From NCBI GenBank assembly GCA_040905475.1, contig JBBDRM010000130.1, positions 1 to 34,909 of the forward strand: a stretch of 34,909 nt of DNA, given 5' to 3'. The translations under genes and the position numbers were made by a program. The notes beneath the pieces were generated by a model that searched no databases, was not told the DNA's origin, and worked only from the letters and a program-made list of their open reading frames with translations. The first letter of the stretch is position 1. Every line of letters begins with the position of its first letter. This document shows positions 20,094 through 31,388 of the stretch, one piece after another. Source of the DNA: Actinomycetota bacterium. GTDB taxonomy: Bacteria > Actinomycetota > AC-67.

Positions 20094-20609
20094 ATGATGG
20101 CGATGCAGAACGGGAACCGCCGGTCCGACCGGATCCTCGACCCCTCGTATCTGGAGGGCCTCGACGGCCTCGACGAGGAGCGCCTCCGCGCCATGCGCGA
20201 GGAGTGCGAGGAAGAGGAAGGCGTCCTCTCCTACGAACGGAGCCTGATCCACAGCCGGCTCTCGATCCTGGGGGCCGAGCAAGCCCGGAGGGCGGACGGC
20301 GGCCCTTCGGGATCCTTGGTCGACCGCCTCCCGGAGATCCTCGCCGGCCACGGGCCGGCGAGCCATCGCGGATCCTTCCCGAAGCTGGAAGCGCCGGCCA
20401 TGTACGAGACGCCCCGACGCCGAGTCGAGAAACTCGTCAACGATGACACGCTGGCGCGTTTGCCCGAGCTGCCCGATGAAGAACTTCGGTCGATCATCGA
20501 CACGCTCGAGGCGACCGAGAGTGAGGTTTCTGCGGCACGGCACTCCATCCAAGTCGTGCTCGACAGGCTCATCGAAGAGCTCGGTCGTCGCCTCGCTCCG
20601 CGTACGTAG
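20094..20609 (+). CDS. rsiG: RsiG-like c-di-GMP-binding anti-sigma factor
   Basis: 171 residues, two long helices joined by a linker. The start RRSDRILDPSYLEGLDGLDEE matches the RsiG family. RsiG binds c-di-GMP through an antiparallel helix pair, each helix carrying E-x3-S-x2-R-x3-Q-x3-D, and then holds the sigma factor WhiG. The second helix has an exact copy: Glu142, Ser146, Arg149, Gln153, Asp157. The first helix has a degenerate copy in which the last two positions are changed: Glu42, Ser46, Arg49, His53, Ser57. This suggests altered ligand stoichiometry or a homodimer, as described for the single-motif Rubrobacter protein. GGAGG at 20081-20085 supports the ATG at 20094. The target sigma factor is not in the window. 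c-di-GMP-related genes follow downstream. Confidence 0.8.
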   Translation: MMAMQNGNRRSDRILDPSYLEGLDGLDEERLRAMREECEEEEGVLSYERSLIHSRLSILGAEQARRADGGPSGSLVDRLPEILAGHGPASHRGSFPKLEAPAMYETPRRRVEKLVNDDTLARLPELPDEELRSIIDTLEATESEVSAARHSIQVVLDRLIEELGRRLAPRT

Positions 20610-20742: not shown

Positions 20743-21138
20743 ATGGCAATCTCCGCGGCCCGCGGATCCTCGCACAGGACCCGGGTGATGATCGTGGACG
20801 ACGATCCCTTGATCCGTGATGTCGTGCGCGCGGTTCTGGAGGACGGCTCGTACGAGCTGGAGGAAGCTGGTTCCGGTGAGGAAGCCCTCCGGCTCGCCGA
20901 ACAACGTCCGCCCGACGTCGTGCTGCTCGATGTGATGATGCCGGGGATGGACGGCTTCGAGGTCGCCGAGCGGATCAAGGGCGATCCGAAGCTCAAGGCC
21001 GCGCTCATCGTGATGCTGACGGCGAAGGACGCGCCCGAGGATCGTCGCCGCGGGATGAAGTGCGGTGCGGACATGTACTTCACGAAACCGTTCAGCCCTC
21101 TCGAGTTACTGACGACCCTCAACGGAGCACTGCGATGA
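20743..21138 (+). CDS. Stand-alone response-regulator receiver domain
   Basis: 131 residues, receiver only. Acidic pocket Asp19/Asp20/Asp21 (VMIVDDDPL), phosphoacceptor Asp63 (VVLLDVMMPGMDG), switch Thr93 (VMLTAKD) and Lys115 (FTKPFSP). The site is complete, so phosphorylation by an unlinked histidine kinase is expected. The 14-residue N-terminal extension is not part of the fold. The stop overlaps the HD-GYP gene (ATGA), so the receiver probably works as a separate subunit for that enzyme, equivalent to fused REC-HD-GYP (RpfG-like) proteins. ATAGAT at 20731-20736, ending 6 bases before the ATG, may be a leaderless -10 box. Confidence 0.9.
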   Translation: MAISAARGSSHRTRVMIVDDDPLIRDVVRAVLEDGSYELEEAGSGEEALRLAEQRPPDVVLLDVMMPGMDGFEVAERIKGDPKLKAALIVMLTAKDAPEDRRRGMKCGADMYFTKPFSPLELLTTLNGALR

Positions 21139-21890
21139 GCCAGGAGATCGCCACCGGGTCGACCGATCCGGTGGAAGAGCACCGTCTGCGCGAGCAGCTT
21201 CTCGCCTTCGCGCGCGACATCAACGAGGTGTACCGCCGCGAACGCGCGCGGACGGCGGAGCTCGAGCAAGCGCTCGAAGAGCTCGAAGAGTCCTATCTTG
21301 CAACCGTAAAGACGCTCGCGTTCGTGGTCGAAGCGAAGGACGTTCATACGCGCTCCCACCTCGATCGCGCCCACGACTACGCGGTGGCGCTCGCGTCCCG
21401 CGTCGCCCCAGAGCTCGCCTCCGATCAGACGCTGCGTTACGGGTTCTTCCTGCACGACATCGGCAAGATCGGGATCCCCGAACGGATCCTTTCCAAGCCC
21501 GGTCCGCTCACCGACGACGAGTGGGCGATCATGCGGACCCATCCGGTGCTCGGCGCGCAGATCCTTTCTCCGGTCAAGTTCCTGATCCCGGCGCTGCCGA
21601 TCGTCGAGGCCCACCACGAGAAGTGGGACGGCTCCGGGTACCCGCGCGGGCTCCGCGGCGAGCAGATCCCTCTCGGAGCGAGGATCTTCGCGCTCGTGGA
21701 CGCGTTCGACGCGATGACGTCCGACCGGCCCTACCGCCGGGCTCTCTCCTTCGAGCAGGCCCTCGATCAGATCAGCTCGTGTGCCGGCACACACTTCGAC
21801 CCCGAGGTCGTTCGCTCGTTCGTCGAGCTCTGTGAAGACGCAGAGAAGGGTCGCCTCTTCTCCGGCGAAGGCGCTCGGCACGTGAGCTGA
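21135..21890 (+). CDS. HD-GYP domain c-di-GMP phosphodiesterase
   Basis: 251 residues. A coiled coil at about 15-58 (HRLREQLLAFARDINEVYRR and following Glu-rich helix) leads into the HD-GYP domain (about 60-240). Metal ligands and signature: His71 and His75 (VHTRSHLDR), FLHDIGKIGIP with His107/Asp108, THPVLG, HH at 160-161, and DGSGYPRGL with GYP at 168-170. The family hydrolyses c-di-GMP to pGpG or GMP. All core residues are present, so activity is expected. It overlaps the receiver gene by 4 bases; the N-terminal coiled coil could bind the receiver. An RsiG-like c-di-GMP sensor lies 525 bases upstream. Confidence 0.92.
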   Translation: MSQEIATGSTDPVEEHRLREQLLAFARDINEVYRRERARTAELEQALEELEESYLATVKTLAFVVEAKDVHTRSHLDRAHDYAVALASRVAPELASDQTLRYGFFLHDIGKIGIPERILSKPGPLTDDEWAIMRTHPVLGAQILSPVKFLIPALPIVEAHHEKWDGSGYPRGLRGEQIPLGARIFALVDAFDAMTSDRPYRRALSFEQALDQISSCAGTHFDPEVVRSFVELCEDAEKGRLFSGEGARHVS

Positions 21891-22021: not shown

Positions 22022-22087
22022 ACGCGACTACGTATTCCGATTCCTTAGATCGAGTTCGGTGACGCAGCCGAGTTGATGGGGGCAACG

Positions 22088-23794
22088 ATGCCACTGGGGA
22101 ACCGCCTGAACGGGCGCAGCACGTCCACGCTTGCTTTCGTGATCGCCGCTCTGATCGCCACGGGGCTTTGGGCTCGATCAACGATCCACTCCGATGAGCC
22201 CGCACGCGTCATGGGCGTCACGATCTGGTCGGGGGCGATGAGCTTCCCTTCCGGTTACACCGTCGCGGCCGGCCAGACGGTCGAGCTGAACCCGAACGCG
22301 AACACGACCATCGACCTCGGCGGGAACCTGCTCGTCCAGGGAACGCTCCGTTCGTGGCCGGCACCCGGCTTCACGCACGTCATCCGGTTCACGGGCATCA
22401 CCGAGACGAGCTTCGTGGGCGGCGGCGACGTTCCGCTCGCCTCCGACAAGGGTCTCTGGGTCGCGGGAGCGGGCAACCTCGATCTCAGCGGCACGCCGAA
22501 GCTCGCTTGGACCCGCGCGGCCGGGACGTTGGCGAAGGGCGCGACGACGGCGACGCTCTCGGAGGCTGCGGCAGGCTGGCAAGTGGGCGATGAAGTGCTC
22601 ATCTCGCCGACCGAGAACCCAAACGTTGCAGGATTCTCGACCCACCACGAGATCCGCACGCTTACCTCCGTGAGCGGCTCATCCGTCGGGTTCGCCGCGT
22701 TGACCTATCCCCACCCGCAGGTCACGGTGAAGGCGGGGACGACGTACGGGGCCGAGGTGGTCAACCTCACGCGAAACATGCGGATCGAGGGCACCGATAT
22801 CACGCACCGCACCCATGTCTGGATCAAGTCCTCCAAGCCGCAATCGGTGCGTAACGTGGCGATCCGGTACGTCGGACCGCAGAAGAGCGGGGACACGATC
22901 ATGGGCCGTTACGGTCTCCACTTCCACCGTTCCGGCGAGGGATCGCGCGGTTCGTTGATCGAGGGTGTCGTCGTGCGTCAGGCCGGAGCCTTCGCCTTCG
23001 TCCCCCACGCATCGAACGGCATCACGTTCCGCAACACCGCGGCCTTCGACACCCAGTCGGGGGCATACTGGAACGACCCCGGTGAGGCCGAGAAGCCGAG
23101 CGATACCGTCTACGACCGCGCGCTCGCCGGCTACGTGCGGCCCGCGCCGGCCGAGAACCCTTTCCGCACGACGGCGTTCTTCCTGGGCAGGGGCGATGGG
23201 AACAAGTGCCTCGGATGCGTGACGTTCGGCGTCCAGGGATCGAAGAACACCTCGGGATTCGGCTGGCCGGAGGGCGAGGTCGGCGTGTGGACCTTCGAGG
23301 ACTCCGTCGCCCACAACAATCTCCAGGACGGCATCTTCACGTGGCAGAACGGCCCCGCGACCCACACGATCGCGCGATTCGTCGCGTACTACAACGGGAA
23401 ATCCGGCATCGAGCACGGGGCGTACACCAACTCGTACGCTTATGACGATGTGATCCTGTACGGGAACAAGATCGCTGGTATCCAGCTCCATGCGGAGTCC
23501 AAGGCGCCTCCGATGACGAGGATGCAGTTCGCGCGAACATATCTGGACGGAGCAGGGATAACGAAGTACGGCTATCTGCTCGAGCGGCCGACGAACGTGG
23601 ATCAGCCGCCTGTGCTCGTGTGCCAGAACGTGATCCAGAGCCTGACGGGTCCGATGTACTTCGTGAATTACACGGGAGCGGACGCAACCGTCGCCGAGCG
23701 TCTTGAGATCACGGCATCGTGCTCGGGAGCACCCGCGCCCAGCGCCTCGCCGACGCCGACCCCCACCCCGAGTCCCCCTACGGGTTCACGTTGA
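22088..23794 (+). CDS. Secreted G8/CEMIP-like beta-helix protein, paralogue A
   Basis: 568 residues. A signal/anchor helix lies at about 13-30. A G8-like beta domain follows (about 45-160: TVAAGQTVELNPNANTTIDL, then GGNLLVQGTLRS, then AGNLDLSGTPKLAWTR). Next comes a WQVGDEVLISPT segment, then a right-handed beta-helix region with GRYGLHFHRSGEG at 273-285, which resembles the GRYPIHFH motif of CEMIP/TMEM2 proteins (vertebrate hyaluronan-degrading or -binding). The C-terminus is a Pro/Thr/Ser tail of about 20 residues without an LPXTG anchor. ATG 22088 is preferred because GGGGG at 22078-22082 precedes it by 5 bases; TTG 22073 and ATG 22076 are possible. Polysaccharide binding or cleavage is inferred. 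A paralogue follows in tandem. Confidence 0.75.
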   Translation: MPLGNRLNGRSTSTLAFVIAALIATGLWARSTIHSDEPARVMGVTIWSGAMSFPSGYTVAAGQTVELNPNANTTIDLGGNLLVQGTLRSWPAPGFTHVIRFTGITETSFVGGGDVPLASDKGLWVAGAGNLDLSGTPKLAWTRAAGTLAKGATTATLSEAAAGWQVGDEVLISPTENPNVAGFSTHHEIRTLTSVSGSSVGFAALTYPHPQVTVKAGTTYGAEVVNLTRNMRIEGTDITHRTHVWIKSSKPQSVRNVAIRYVGPQKSGDTIMGRYGLHFHRSGEGSRGSLIEGVVVRQAGAFAFVPHASNGITFRNTAAFDTQSGAYWNDPGEAEKPSDTVYDRALAGYVRPAPAENPFRTTAFFLGRGDGNKCLGCVTFGVQGSKNTSGFGWPEGEVGVWTFEDSVAHNNLQDGIFTWQNGPATHTIARFVAYYNGKSGIEHGAYTNSYAYDDVILYGNKIAGIQLHAESKAPPMTRMQFARTYLDGAGITKYGYLLERPTNVDQPPVLVCQNVIQSLTGPMYFVNYTGADATVAERLEITASCSGAPAPSASPTPTPTPSPPTGSR

Positions 23795-24181
23795 AGCGCG
23801 GTCCGCCTCAGCAGTGGCGGAGCGTCTCAACATCAAGTCCGTCTGTTGGCGCGCTCGTGCGATCCGACGGGGTCACGCGCGATACGGACAAGGGGTACAG
23901 CTGTACGGCAACGGCACGAATGATGCGCTCGTAACGCTACCAAGTCGGCCCAGTTCCGCTCGCGGCTCACATAGGACGCACCGAGACGTCTTCCGCTCTG
24001 CGCTACGCAAAGCGCGCGTATCGCGGCTCAACAAAAGTCGATGCGCGGCCGATACAAACCTGCCGGTGGTGAGGCCGAGCAGGTGATGAACCGCTGCGGC
24101 CTTCAGCCGTGATCGTTCTCCACCGGCCGACCATCGCCTCCCGACACAACGGTTCCGTCGATCGAGCACTGGGGGAGATCG
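23795..24181. other. 387-base intergenic region between the two paralogues
   Basis: No convincing gene on either strand. A short stem TCCGCC/GGCGGA near 23803-23822 just past the stop may end the first transcript. A perfect 12-bp palindrome occurs at 23895-23906. Composition is less coding-like than its flanks, and no similarity to the paralogue tails was noticed. Confidence 0.5.
23895..23906. promoter_or_regulatory. 12-bp perfect palindrome GTACAGCTGTAC
   Basis: It is fully self-complementary and lies 276 bases before the paralogue B start in otherwise featureless intergenic DNA. It could be a repressor site; no regulator in the window is an obvious match. Confidence 0.35.
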
Positions 24182-25990
24182 ATGCGTCCACGGGGAAACG
24201 CGTTCCGCTTTCTGCTCGGCGTCGTCGTTCGTGCTTCGTTCGTCATCGCCTTGGTATTGGGCCTCTTCACGTCGGCGATGCTCATCTCAGCGGAAACGCT
24301 GACCACCTTGTCCGGCTCGGTGAGTCTTACGGCAGGCCGCACGATCGCGGCCGGCGAAACGCTCGAGCTTGCTCCCGACGTCGACACGACCATCACGCTC
24401 GGCGGAAACCTGATCGTACAGGGCACGTTGCGGTCCAAGCCGGCGCCCGGCGTGACGCACGTGATCCGTTTCATCGGGATCGACGAGTCGAAGTTCGTCG
24501 GTGGAGGCAACGAACCCGTTGCCTCCGACGTCGGCCTTTGGGTTACGGGCGAAGGCAAGCTCGATCTGTCTGGCCCCGAGAAACTGGCATGGACGCGGGC
24601 TGCGGCGAGTCTTCCGGCCGGTGCCACGAGCGCCGTGCTCGAAGCCGTTCCCGCGGGGTGGCAGGCAGGAGATGAGATCCTGGTCGCGCCAACCGAGGCT
24701 CCGAACGTCGCCGGCTTCTCGACGCATCACGAGGTCCGGACGCTGACCTCGGTGAGCGGGTCGACGGTTGGATTCGGAAGCTTGTCATTCGCGCATCCCC
24801 GCGTGACGGTGAAACCGGACGTTTCGTACGGGGCGGAGATAGTGAATCTCACCCGCTCCGTCCGGATCGAGGGCCAGGATGCGACGCATCGCACGCACGT
24901 GTGGATCAAGTCCGGCGTGCCGCAATCGATCCGCAACGTGGCGATCCGTTACGCCGGGCCCCAGAAGGGCTCGCCTGCCGAATCGGTTTTGGGGCGCTAC
25001 GGCCTCCACTTCCACCGGATGGGAGAAGGGTCGGGCGGCTCGCTCGTCGAGGGTGTCGTCGTCCGGCAGACCGGTGGACCCGGATTCGCCGTTCATGCCT
25101 CGAACGGCGTGACGTTGCGGAAAACGGTCGCTCACGACATCCAAAGCGTCGCCTACTGGTACGACCCCGGCGCCACGGAGGCTCCGAACGATACGCTTTA
25201 TGACGGCGCGCTCGCCTCCCATGTCAGACCGACTCCCAAGCAGGGATCCGCTCACCGGCTGACGGCCTTCTTGCTGGGGCGTGGTACCGGAAACGCTTGC
25301 CTGGGATGCGTCGCATTCGGCGTCCAGGGAGGAAAGAACGCAAGCGGATTCAGTTGGCCGGAGGGTGAGGTGGGCATCTGGCGGTTCGAAGATGTACTCG
25401 CCCACAACAACGCTCGCAACGGCATATTCGTGTGGCAGAACGCGACCGGCGGGCACTTCGTCGACCGGTTCACCGCCTACTACAACGGGTCCGCGGGGAT
25501 CGAGCACGGCGCGTACACCAACGCGTATCACTACCGTGACAGCGTGCTCTACGCGAACAAGTCGGCTGGCGTCATCCTCTACGCTGCCTCATCCAACCAG
25601 GCTCCGCCCCTGTCGTTCGAACGGCCCTACATCGACGGCGGAGGCATCACATCGAACGCCGTTCTCCTTGCGAAGCCGACCAACTTGGACCAACCGCCGA
25701 CGCTTTGGTGCGGAGCAACGATCCTCGGTCTCAAAGCCGTCCCCTTCCTGGTGGGCTACACCGGCGCGGACGCCACGATCGTCGAGCGGCTCCTCATCCT
25801 GCCGGTGTGTCCGAGTGATCTGTCGCCGGACGAACCTTCCGTGCCGGTCCCGCCGCCTCCGTCGCCGCGAGGTGCGAAGAGCACTGCGCCTTCGCAGGGG
25901 CCATCGGCTCCGGCGAACCCGCCGCCGGCTCCGAGTCCGTCGGCCGCGCCGGGCCGCGGCGGAACGCCGCCGCCCAAGCAAGGGCGATAG
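24182..25990 (+). CDS. Secreted G8/CEMIP-like beta-helix protein, paralogue B
   Basis: 602 residues with the same layout as paralogue A. Signal/anchor helix about 10-37, G8-like domain about 43-150, WQAGDEILVAPT at 160-171, then the beta-helix with GRYGLHFHRMGEG at 271-283, DIQSVAYWYDPG, ASGFSWPEGEVG and a repeated AHNN...G.F.WQN pattern. Matching blocks run collinearly along the whole length of A, so the pair arose by tandem duplication and has since diverged. The C-terminal 60 residues are Pro/Ser/Ala-rich and basic at the end, longer than in A, perhaps for wall association. GGGGGAG at 24171-24177 precedes the ATG. Function as for A: extracellular glycan interaction is inferred, with catalysis unproven. 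Confidence 0.75.
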   Translation: MRPRGNAFRFLLGVVVRASFVIALVLGLFTSAMLISAETLTTLSGSVSLTAGRTIAAGETLELAPDVDTTITLGGNLIVQGTLRSKPAPGVTHVIRFIGIDESKFVGGGNEPVASDVGLWVTGEGKLDLSGPEKLAWTRAAASLPAGATSAVLEAVPAGWQAGDEILVAPTEAPNVAGFSTHHEVRTLTSVSGSTVGFGSLSFAHPRVTVKPDVSYGAEIVNLTRSVRIEGQDATHRTHVWIKSGVPQSIRNVAIRYAGPQKGSPAESVLGRYGLHFHRMGEGSGGSLVEGVVVRQTGGPGFAVHASNGVTLRKTVAHDIQSVAYWYDPGATEAPNDTLYDGALASHVRPTPKQGSAHRLTAFLLGRGTGNACLGCVAFGVQGGKNASGFSWPEGEVGIWRFEDVLAHNNARNGIFVWQNATGGHFVDRFTAYYNGSAGIEHGAYTNAYHYRDSVLYANKSAGVILYAASSNQAPPLSFERPYIDGGGITSNAVLLAKPTNLDQPPTLWCGATILGLKAVPFLVGYTGADATIVERLLILPVCPSDLSPDEPSVPVPPPPSPRGAKSTAPSQGPSAPANPPPAPSPSAAPGRGGTPPPKQGR

Positions 25991-26046: not shown

Positions 26047-26775
26047 GTGCGCGTGGCGGTGATGTCCGACGTCCACTCCAACCTGGAGGCACTCGACGCC
26101 GTTCTGGCGGCCGCCGACGAGCAGGGCTGTGACCGGTTGCTGGTGCTCGGCGACCTGGTCGGCTACGGGGCCGATCCGGATGCCGTCATCGCCCGTTTGG
26201 TCGAGCGGGGTGCCGTAGCCATCGCCGGGAACCACGACCTCGCGGCGATCGGCCGATTCGACGCCACCTGGTTCAACGAAGTGGCCTCCTCGGCGATCGC
26301 GTGGACCGCCGAGACCATGTCCGCCGACACCCGAGCGTTCCTGGCCGAGCTCGAGCCACGCCGGGACGAGCCCGACGCGCTGCTCGTGCACGGCTCGGTC
26401 CGCGATCCGGCGGCCGAATATCTCCTGACCCTCGAGGACGCAAAGGCAAGCTTCGAGCTGGGTGACTTCGCGGTCGCATTCTTCGGTCACACCCACCTCC
26501 CGTCGATCTTCCGAAGCGACGAGCGCGGCCGGGTCGACGGAAGGATCCTTCCCGAGGGATCACCGATCGATCTCGAGCCCGGCGCGCGATACATGCTGAA
26601 CCCCGGCAGCGTCGGACAGCCTCGCGACCGTGACCCTCGCGCCGCGTTCATCGTGTGGGAGGACGGCCGGGTGCTCGGCCACCGTGTCGCGTATCCGATC
26701 GAGAAAACCGCCGCCAAGATCAACGCCGCCGGGTTACCGCGCTGGTTGGCCGACCGCCTTTCGCTCGGCGAATGA
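26047..26775 (+). CDS. Calcineurin-like metallophosphoesterase (YfcE-like)
   Basis: 242 residues. The full dinuclear-metal motif set is present: SDVHSN (7-12), GDLVGYGADP, GNHD, HGS, GHTHLP, and the closing NPGSVGQPRDRDP. This is the YfcE/MJ0936-like phosphodiesterase group; natural substrates are mostly unknown. The GTG at 26047 is chosen because it is 7 bases from the -10 element and the protein then begins MRVAVMSDVHSN like relatives. The stop overlaps the asparaginase start (ATGA), so the two are one unit, with no evident functional link. Confidence 0.88.
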   Translation: MRVAVMSDVHSNLEALDAVLAAADEQGCDRLLVLGDLVGYGADPDAVIARLVERGAVAIAGNHDLAAIGRFDATWFNEVASSAIAWTAETMSADTRAFLAELEPRRDEPDALLVHGSVRDPAAEYLLTLEDAKASFELGDFAVAFFGHTHLPSIFRSDERGRVDGRILPEGSPIDLEPGARYMLNPGSVGQPRDRDPRAAFIVWEDGRVLGHRVAYPIEKTAAKINAAGLPRWLADRLSLGE

Positions 26776-27725
26776 GCTCCGGGGAGCCGTTCGTCGTCGA
26801 GGTCGATCGCTCGGGCCTGATCGAGAGCATCCACCTCGTCGACGTCGCCGTGGCCGGCTCGAACGGCAAGCTCGTCGCGTGGGCCGGCGAACCCGACACC
26901 GTTGCGTACCTCCGCTCCTCCGCCAAGCCGATCCAGACGCTGGCCTGCCTCGAGAGCGGATGGCGAGCGCCCGGAACCGAGCAGGTGGCGGTCGCCTGCG
27001 CCTCCCACAACGGCGAGCCGCGCCACGTCGAAGCGATCCGCGTCACGCTCTCCGCGGCCGGGTTCTCCGAGGACGCGCTGCGATGCCCGGCGGCCTGGCC
27101 GTTCCGCCCGGAGGACGCCGCGGCCGTCAACGGTTCCGCCCCGATCCTGCACAACTGCTCCGGAAAGCACGCCGCGATGCTCGCGACCGCCAAGGAGAAC
27201 GGCTGGACGCTCGAAGACTATCGCGCGGCCGAGCACCCGATGCAGCGTGCGGTCGCGACCCAGGTCGAGCGCCTCGCCGGCGCTTCCGTTCGACACACCG
27301 GCGTCGATGGCTGCGGCGTGCCCACGTTCGCCTTGTCGCTCACCGAGTCGGCTCGCCTCTTCGCCCGGCTGGCCGAAGACGGACGTGATGTGCTCGACGC
27401 GATGGCAGATCACCCGTTCCTCGTGGCGGGAACCGGCCGGCTCTGCACCGCGGTGATGAGCGCGCGTCCCGGCGTCGTGATCAAGATCGGTGCCGAGGGA
27501 CTCTCGTGCGGCGTTCTCCGCGACCAGGGCCTCGCGTTCGCGTTGAAAGCCCGTGACGGCACGCAGCGGGCGCGCGACATCGCGACCGTGGCGACCCTGA
27601 AAGTGCTCGGATCCATCGACGACGACGTGCCGGAGATGCTTGCTCCGCACGCGGCTCCTGCCGTCCTGGGCGGGGGGGAACCCGCCGGCTCGATCCGGTG
27701 CACGGGCGTTCTGGAACGAGCCTGA
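26772..27725 (+). CDS. L-asparaginase II family (Rhizobium-type) protein
   Basis: 317 residues. The family, unlike E. coli-type asparaginases, shows the blocks seen here: RSSAKPIQTLA near 47-57, ACASHNGE, NCSGKHAAML, GVDGCGVPTFA and KIGAEGLSCGV. SxxK (Ser-Ser-Ala-Lys) and the Cys residues match the catalytic and zinc-binding positions of characterised ReAV-type enzymes. It hydrolyses asparagine to aspartate and ammonia. Length is close to the family norm (330-360) but slightly short. Start ATG overlaps the previous stop. A hairpin (GCAGG/CCTGC, 27726-27745) immediately follows the stop. Confidence 0.9.
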   Translation: MSSGEPFVVEVDRSGLIESIHLVDVAVAGSNGKLVAWAGEPDTVAYLRSSAKPIQTLACLESGWRAPGTEQVAVACASHNGEPRHVEAIRVTLSAAGFSEDALRCPAAWPFRPEDAAAVNGSAPILHNCSGKHAAMLATAKENGWTLEDYRAAEHPMQRAVATQVERLAGASVRHTGVDGCGVPTFALSLTESARLFARLAEDGRDVLDAMADHPFLVAGTGRLCTAVMSARPGVVIKIGAEGLSCGVLRDQGLAFALKARDGTQRARDIATVATLKVLGSIDDDVPEMLAPHAAPAVLGGGEPAGSIRCTGVLERA

Positions 27726-27842: not shown

Positions 27843-28361
27843 GTGAAGGTGCGAGAGCTCGGACGCTTCATCCGTGACCAGCGAGGCGCGTCGCGCCTCT
27901 CGCTGCGCAGGCTCTCGAAGCTGGCGGGGATATCCAACCCCTATCTCTCACAGATCGAGCGCGGCCTCCGCCGCCCGAGCGCCGAGATCCTCCAGGCGAT
28001 CGCGAAAGCGCTGCGCATCTCGGCCGAGACCCTCTACATCAAGGCCGGCATCCTCGAGGAGCGCACCGACACCGCGAACCTCCCGGCCGTCATCCGCCGC
28101 GACGAGTCGCTGACGGCAACCCAGAAGCAGCTCTTGCTCGACGTCTACCAAAGCTTCCAGGCCGGCGCGGAGCCGCGACGAACCCCGGTACGAAAGGTAG
28201 CCGCCGCGAAGAAGCCCCGCGCGGCTTCACCGAAAGTTAAGACGAAGGCCAAGCCCAAGCCCAAGCCCAAGACGACGACCCGGCCCCGCGGTGCGGGGAA
28301 GGGAAAGGCGGCCCCGAAGCGAGCGACGCGAGCGCGCCGCACCACACGGAGGACCGCGTGA
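27843..28361 (+). CDS. XRE-family regulator with a histone-H1-like Lys/Pro tail (Rv0474-like)
   Basis: 172 residues. Helix-turn-helix domain at about 5-66 (LGRFIRDQRGASRLSLRRLS, then ISNPYLSQIERGLRRPSAEIL, and ISAETLYIKAGIL), which closely matches mycobacterial Rv0474-type regulators. A short helix (about 89-110) follows, then a 60-residue tail of Lys, Pro, Arg, Ala and Thr with KPKPKPK repeats, like histone H1 or HU tails. The tail should bind DNA non-specifically. GTG start with GGGGG 6 bases upstream. In M. tuberculosis the orthologous gene precedes hbhA, and here an HbhA-like gene also follows, so control of that gene is inferred. Confidence 0.85.
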   Translation: MKVRELGRFIRDQRGASRLSLRRLSKLAGISNPYLSQIERGLRRPSAEILQAIAKALRISAETLYIKAGILEERTDTANLPAVIRRDESLTATQKQLLLDVYQSFQAGAEPRRTPVRKVAAAKKPRAASPKVKTKAKPKPKPKTTTRPRGAGKGKAAPKRATRARRTTRRTA

Positions 28362-30086: not shown

Positions 30087-31388
30087 TTGCAAGAGATACG
30101 CGGGACGATGCCGCGCGAGGCCCCGAGCCGGGTCGAACGGGTCGCGCTCGTCAGCGTCCACACGTGTCCGTTGGACCAGCCGGGGATCGGCGACTCCGGT
30201 GGCATGAACGTCTACGTCCGATCGGTCGCGCGCCGGCTCGCCGAGATGGGCGTCGAGGTTGATATCTTCACCCGCGCCGCCGGCCCCGAGCAGCACGTCG
30301 TGGACGTCGACCCCGGTGTTCGGGTGGTTCACCTGGAGGCGGGCCCCGACCGTCCGGTTGAGAAAGAGGAACTCCCGAACTATCTCGGTGAGTTCCTCAC
30401 CTCGATGGTTCGCTTCGATTCCGAGGAGGCAGCGCGCCTCGGCGCGGACACTCCGATCTACGACGTCGTCCACTCGCACTACTGGCTATCGGGATCGATC
30501 GGGCGCCGCGCCCGCGAACGCTGGGGCGTCTCGCTCGTTCACTCCTTCCACACGCTCGGCGCCGTGAAGAACCTCACGCTTGCGGAGGGCGAGTCGCCCG
30601 AACCTCAGAACCGCATCGCAGGAGAGAAGAAGATCGCCCAGGTCGCCGACTGCATCCTCGCCCCGACGGTGGGAGAGGCGGCCGACCTCGTGAACCTGTA
30701 CGGAGCCGACCCCCGGCGTGTGCGCGTCGTGGCGCCGGGCGTGGACACGGACGTGTTAACGCCCGGAGACCGCGAGGCTGCGAAAGCCGCGCTCGGCCTG
30801 GCCGGACGAGCCGTCGTGCTTTTCGTCGGCAGGCTGCAACCTCTCAAGCAACCCGACGTCGCCGTCCGAGCCATCGCGCGGCTGGCGTCGTCGTCGTCCG
30901 GACTCGCTCAACGGCCGACGCTGGTCGTCGTCGGAGGACCGTCGGGCCGAGGCGGCGTGCAACCCGAGTCGCTCACCAAACTTGCCGCAGAGCTCGGCGT
31001 GGCCGATCTGGTTCGTCTCGAGGGAACGGTGCCCCACGACGTCATCCCAATCTATTACCGGGCCGCGGATGTGACGCTGATCCCTTCGCGGAGCGAGTCT
31101 TTCGGGCTCGTCGCGATCGAATCGAGCGCGTGTGGAACCCCCGTGATCGCCTCGGATGTCGGAGGGCTTCGGGTCGCCGTTCGCGACGACGTAACCGGAT
31201 GGCTCGTGCCGAGCTTCGCACCGGAGGCGTTCGCCGACGCGCTCGGGCGCGTGCTCGGCGACCCGGTGCACGCGGCGGCGATGGGAACGGCCGGCGCGCG
31301 GTTCGCCCGCCGGTTCGACTGGCGACGAGCCTCGATCGACCTGCTCGCGATCTACGAGGATCTGGCGGAGCCCGAACCCGCCGGCTAG
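30087..31388 (+). CDS. mshA: D-inositol-3-phosphate glycosyltransferase, mycothiol biosynthesis
   Basis: 433 residues, GT-B fold (family GT4). MshA joins UDP-GlcNAc to inositol 3-phosphate, the first step of mycothiol synthesis. The N-terminal block SVHTCPLDQPGIGDSGGMNV and VHSHYWLSG match known MshA proteins, as do LVHSFHTLGAVKN, VAPGVDTDVLTPGDR, FVGRLQPLKQPD and the donor-binding SRSESFGLVAIESSACGTP. TTG 30087 is preferred because GGAGG at 30075-30079 is 7 bases upstream; ATG 30108 is the alternative. In M. tuberculosis mshA (Rv0486) is also followed by a YbjN gene; here a GNAT gene lies between. Mycothiol is restricted to Actinobacteria, which fixes the phylum. Confidence 0.95.
   Translation: MQEIRGTMPREAPSRVERVALVSVHTCPLDQPGIGDSGGMNVYVRSVARRLAEMGVEVDIFTRAAGPEQHVVDVDPGVRVVHLEAGPDRPVEKEELPNYLGEFLTSMVRFDSEEAARLGADTPIYDVVHSHYWLSGSIGRRARERWGVSLVHSFHTLGAVKNLTLAEGESPEPQNRIAGEKKIAQVADCILAPTVGEAADLVNLYGADPRRVRVVAPGVDTDVLTPGDREAAKAALGLAGRAVVLFVGRLQPLKQPDVAVRAIARLASSSSGLAQRPTLVVVGGPSGRGGVQPESLTKLAAELGVADLVRLEGTVPHDVIPIYYRAADVTLIPSRSESFGLVAIESSACGTPVIASDVGGLRVAVRDDVTGWLVPSFAPEAFADALGRVLGDPVHAAAMGTAGARFARRFDWRRASIDLLAIYEDLAEPEPAG

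Follow-up and report, generated by a model that had tools for sequence, protein, structure and literature searches.

The closest described relatives of the locus analysed here are the RsiG proteins of Streptomyces venezuelae and Rubrobacter radiotolerans. The S. venezuelae protein (6PFJ, 6PFV) has a two-helix fold with a linker and two copies of a c-di-GMP motif (E-x3-S-x2-R-x3-Q-x3-D), and residues K57, G61 and R62 of its cognate sigma factor WhiG also touch the nucleotide. The R. radiotolerans form is a single-motif homodimer (7LQ2-7LQ4), and in Rubrobacter the RsiG-WhiG switch is thought to govern pili. In homologues, the Asp of the motif recognises one guanine, which is splayed out, by its Watson-Crick face. 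Schumacher et al. 2021 (PMC8325347) describe both motifs as strikingly well conserved among 130 twin sequences, chiefly from Streptomycetaceae, Geodermatophilaceae and Pseudonocardiaceae, with the sole exception of motif 1, where Gln is often replaced by His, a residue able to make the same stacking contact. In Streptomyces, RmdB, an EAL/GGDEF phosphodiesterase, binds WhiG and thereby counteracts RsiG (PMC13232838).

A variant twin-motif RsiG and its neighbourhood

The window, the whole of a 34,909-nucleotide stretch of DNA from an Actinomycetota bacterium, contains the following rsiG features:

20094-20609, + strand: rsiG, encoding a twin-motif protein of 171 aa, the predicted c-di-GMP-dependent anti-sigma factor of WhiG (PF22802, phmmer to 6PFJ chain T, AlphaFold2/Foldseek)
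20175-20294, + strand: first coiled-coil helix, residues 28-67 (AlphaFold2 model)
20217-20264, + strand: motif 1, E42 S46 R49 H53 S57, with Ser for Asp (codon TCG at 20262-20264)
20475-20594, + strand: second coiled-coil helix, residues 128-167 (AlphaFold2 model)
20517-20564, + strand: motif 2, exact, E142 S146 R149 Q153 D157

The gene belongs to the known RsiG family and is a variant of the twin-motif type. Its product matches the Pfam RsiG family PF22802 in two stretches at 80 bits (curated cut-off 27) and aligns with S. venezuelae RsiG 6PFJ over residues 23-167, nearly the full length (phmmer E 1e-13). The AlphaFold2 model, computed from a 43-row alignment, has a mean pLDDT of 88.9, with 128 residues at 90 or above, and contains two long helices of 40 residues each that form an antiparallel coiled coil, the fold of the twin type. 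Foldseek returned S. venezuelae RsiG chains as its top four matches and as the only significant matches in the PDB (E 1.7e-5 to 8.1e-5, TM 0.62-0.71), at ~36% identity in the fold alignment. The original prediction that this is an RsiG is upheld by profile, phmmer match and fold, and a protein unrelated to the family is not the case. Helix 1 is homologous to the R. radiotolerans protein (phmmer E ~0.02), but the window RsiG, unlike that form, possesses a second helix with its own motif and a twin-type gene neighbourhood; at 171 aa and with both helices present, it falls outside the small, single-motif homodimeric type with its one motif helix. The genome also encodes a WhiG orthologue (G000:C100:23161-23838; 282.8 bits against a FliA_WhiG cut-off of 189.6), in which the residues aligned to the c-di-GMP contacts K57, G61 and R62 of the S. 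venezuelae sigma factor are identical.

The neighbourhood is made up of these genes:

20743-21138, + strand: stand-alone response regulator receiver domain (PF00072, 105.8 bits), adjoining rsiG in same-family genomes
21135-21890, + strand: predicted HD-GYP c-di-GMP phosphodiesterase (PF13487 HD_5, 136.5 bits; HDIGK and HHEKWDGSGYP present)
26080-26775, + strand: calcineurin-like phosphoesterase (PF12850), part of the conserved rsiG neighbourhood
26796-27725, + strand: L-asparaginase II (PF06089, 334 bits, query 26775-27725), part of the conserved neighbourhood
27843-28361, + strand: XRE-type DNA-binding protein, conserved neighbourhood (matches in many twin loci; named from sequence appearance)
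30087-31388, + strand: MshA-like glycosyltransferase, bounding the conserved neighbourhood on the right (matches in many twin loci; named from sequence appearance)

Relatives share, entirely or for the most part, the succession of rsiG, receiver, HD-GYP, phosphoesterase, asparaginase and XRE genes. The HD-GYP start codon (ATG at 21135) overlaps the stop of the receiver gene by 4 bases. At least one of the asparaginase II, XRE or MshA-like glycosyltransferase genes occurs within ~6 kb of rsiG at 20 of 24 twin loci and at none of 20 single loci; at one of the four twin loci with none of these neighbours, the contig ends close to rsiG. An HD-GYP gene adjoins rsiG in four families (f1, to which the window belongs, f8, f13 and f42), unlike in S. 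venezuelae, and the PNAS paper on RsiG makes no mention of HD-GYP. The loci with HD-GYP, often with the receiver gene, directly beside a twin rsiG are the window, L060, L062, L063, L125, L136, L137 and L139. In relatives the HD-GYP and phosphoesterase genes are contiguous; the window has a two-gene insertion between them (22073-23794 and 24182-25990), encoding two tandem related proteins that are probably secreted, the first with a weak match to the CEMIP beta-helix family.

The altered first motif

Read directly from the sequence, motif 2 has E142, S146, R149, Q153 and D157 in exact spacing and helix 1 has E42, S46 and R49 followed by His53 and Ser57 where S. venezuelae has Gln and Asp, all as the original prediction had stated, and no other register of helix 1 contains an intact motif. 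When either Gln or His is accepted at the fourth position (E-x3-S-x2-R-x3-[Q/H]-x3-D), the second helix matches in full and the first departs only in its last residue, Ser57. The full Gln motif arises in 0.02% of composition-preserving shuffles of the protein, and E-x3-S-x2-R alone in 21%, so that the match of helix 1 rests on homology and not on the pattern. Across the 43-row RsiG alignment S46, R49, E142, S146 and R149 are invariant.

The relatives were drawn from whole genomes of the phylum, and the distinct RsiGs (the window protein and 166 relatives) were classed as 103 twin and 64 single forms. His53, which had been called degenerate, proved to be ordinary: His occupies this site in 29 of the twin proteins (28%) and 44 of the single ones (69%), and is competent for stacking according to PMC8325347. 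What is unusual in the motif region is Ser57, a site where 83 of 103 twin proteins have Asp, along with a substitution that had been overlooked, Ser50, at a position that is Arg in S. venezuelae, in 100 of the 103 twin proteins and in every one of the 64 single ones. The surface of helix 1 is thus altered at two positions that hardly vary elsewhere, R50 and D57. Twin forms in general depart from Asp at position 5 in ~19% of cases and from Glu at position 1 in 28%, which makes a complete motif 1 unreliable as a defining feature; since the motif is incomplete in the window, its RsiG is claimed only as a variant of the twin type.

The nearest relatives place these changes. The window's class is represented in the sample by only five genomes, all of one family (f1) and all with a twin RsiG, and a search of named species produced one relative only (L003). 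The four other f1 proteins (L004-L007, from G001-G004) are 43-51% identical to the window RsiG (55% for L004 over the kept columns of the tree alignment), share mostly the same gene order, and all keep the Arg50 that is Ser in the window. Their first motifs read ESRHD (L004), ESRQD (L005) and ESRHA (L006 and L007), compared with ESRHS in the window, and the five form one clade in both maximum-likelihood trees, with support of 98 in the one built from 93 twin proteins and 96 in the one built from 103. Because Asp57 is present in two of the four f1 relatives and in 83 of the 103 twin forms, and because the window protein is nested within f1 and has a twin-type neighbourhood, the loss of Asp57 is, as judged from these comparisons, a late and derived change that followed the duplication within the window's own lineage. 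A single loss, with the losers as one clade, fits the data (AU p 0.67) equally well as two, and a count of two independent losses within f1 is not claimed. Ser at site 57 is also found in the unrelated family f7 (L182), and Glu in f8 and f16.

These observations bear on what the altered helix represents. The original prediction took it for an intermediate linking the homodimeric single-motif form and the two-motif form, a reading suggested by one intact and one altered motif and not formally rejected by a tree of the helix-1 region (73 columns; AU p 0.27). The grouping with single forms is, however, 27.6 log units worse in that tree and is contradicted by the full-length data, which nest the window protein in f1, where two of the four relatives have Asp57; the gene neighbourhood is of the twin type as well. 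Of the single forms, 63 of 64 keep the Asp that the window protein lacks. An internal duplication would yield two intact motifs, and a stepwise build-up predicts that the new helix is the incomplete one, while the altered helix is helix 1, the one to which the single forms align. Together with the ordinary His53, this makes an intermediate highly improbable.

The remaining readings concern function. With R50S, G54S and D57S all in one helix, motif 1 might be decaying, leaving an RsiG that no longer binds the c-di-GMP dimer normally and partners WhiG constitutively or blind to c-di-GMP, or one that binds a single c-di-GMP only; the adjacent HD-GYP gene might have removed the need for strict binding, and the change of both R50 and D57 might seriously weaken c-di-GMP binding. 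The retention of E42, S46, R49 and H53, of a perfect motif 2 and of the WhiG contact residues argues against this, and we consider decay unlikely. A switch of nucleotide specificity, for example to 3',3'-cGAMP, whose binding could dispense with a guanine-reading Asp on one side, is conceivable from the role that Asp57 has in homologues, as losing it could relax base choice at that site. It is scarcely to be expected given that Asp157 and both Arg residues are kept and that the neighbour is an HD-GYP protein, a group usually specific for c-di-GMP. The reading that we prefer, and regard as probable as a whole, is that of a monomeric twin RsiG that is still a c-di-GMP-dependent lock on WhiG, with a late loss of Asp57 and release through the HD-GYP protein.

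Constraints on the two motifs

The survey, broader than the sample of PMC8325347, revealed that the two motifs have relaxed in opposite ways, a pattern of which no statement was found in the available text of that study. The Ser and Arg of both motifs are invariant among the 103 twin proteins. In motif 1, Glu is lost in 29, the stacking residue (Gln or His) in none and Asp in 20, the Asp site being D in 83, E in 16, S in 2 and A in 2; in motif 2, Glu is lost in none, the stacker is Leu, Ile, Phe or Met in 46 and Asp is lost in 1. Single-motif proteins retain the three positions almost without exception (Glu 64/64, Gln or His 64/64, Asp 63/64). Counted by family (~30), any departure at the stacker occurs in 0 for motif 1 versus 12 for motif 2 (Fisher p 1e-4) and at Glu in 7 versus 0 (p 0.01), p-values that are rough because the families are partly dependent and the Arg in f8, f47 and f51 may be one event; departures at Asp (4 versus 1) are not significant. 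The fewest changes on the tree for motif 1 versus motif 2 are 4 versus 0 for Glu, 0 versus 7 for the stacker and 5 versus 1 for Asp.

These sequence counts suggest that the duplicated motifs divided labour, with the two halves of the protein under different constraints. The pattern is likely to have arisen because one chain that meets an asymmetric partner, WhiG, would not need every contact twice, and two copies of a symmetric site in one chain could therefore relax different contacts. In its specific form, with helix 1 having to keep Gln or His while free to lose Glu and Asp, helix 2 the reverse, and the window protein binding the c-di-GMP dimer asymmetrically as WhiG or motif 2 covers for Asp57, we would give this proposal an even chance. 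Taken alone, the Ser57 of the window protein is a small sequence variant, and it is the asymmetry between the motifs that is worth following: it extends a known homodimer-to-monomer case into a testable example of what comes next after duplication, shows which residues to mutate and leads one to expect helix 1 and helix 2 to be sensitive in opposite ways.

Two further observations come from the same survey. The whole of f8 (L071, L072 and others) has RSRQE as motif 1, with Arg for Glu and Glu for Asp, and an intact Glu and Asp in motif 2, so that this family too clearly deviates from the consensus in the literature. Genomes G062 and G110 have five and six RsiG-family matches, suggesting several copies, from which one copy each was taken.

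Proposed WhiG release and possible output

The preferred account starts from the computed family, fold, motif state, neighbourhood, nested tree position and presence of WhiG; from there we infer that the protein binds c-di-GMP and sequesters the sigma factor, how the phosphodiesterase is connected with it and what Ser57 does. The window RsiG would act as a monomer in which the helices of residues 28-67 and 128-167 pair as an antiparallel coiled coil. When c-di-GMP is abundant, it would bind a c-di-GMP dimer and keep WhiG (G000:C100) off RNA polymerase. Since the late loss of Asp57 in f1, the dimer is probably still held by E42, S46, R49 and H53, motif 2 and WhiG, perhaps more weakly or less symmetrically. 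The downstream response regulator and HD-GYP protein probably reduce the c-di-GMP level and thereby set WhiG free, a link drawn from their position, and the recurrence of HD-GYP genes next to rsiG suggests that the RsiG-WhiG complex has a local off-switch. RmdB, which is of another family, provides a precedent for the action of a phosphodiesterase on this complex.

It should be noted that the exact flagellar-type promoter (TAAA-N14-16-GCCGATAA) had no match in any of five genomes, and one mismatch at N15 gave 12 matches in total versus 8 in the control; with these numbers so close, no genome-wide WhiG regulon is claimed. The scan of the window yielded only a two-mismatch site at 24028 (+), no more than expected by chance. 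The genome encodes type IV pilus ATPases and no flagellin was found in it, a combination in which it resembles Rubrobacter. A WhiG-like site (TCAA-N16-GCCGATAT; L249 6185, G000:C84) with two mismatches is located in the type IV pilus cluster, 32 bases ahead of a prepilin-like ORF; chance alone would give 0.8 sites of this kind in these 20 kb. In addition, each of the five genomes of the class has a site of the WhiG/flagellar type, T[A/C]A[A/G]-N15-GCCGATA[A/C/T], directly ahead of one and the same small zinc-ribbon-like gene (L230, L241, L233, L234 and L251 (7860)), with one mismatch in four of them and two in the window's own genome.
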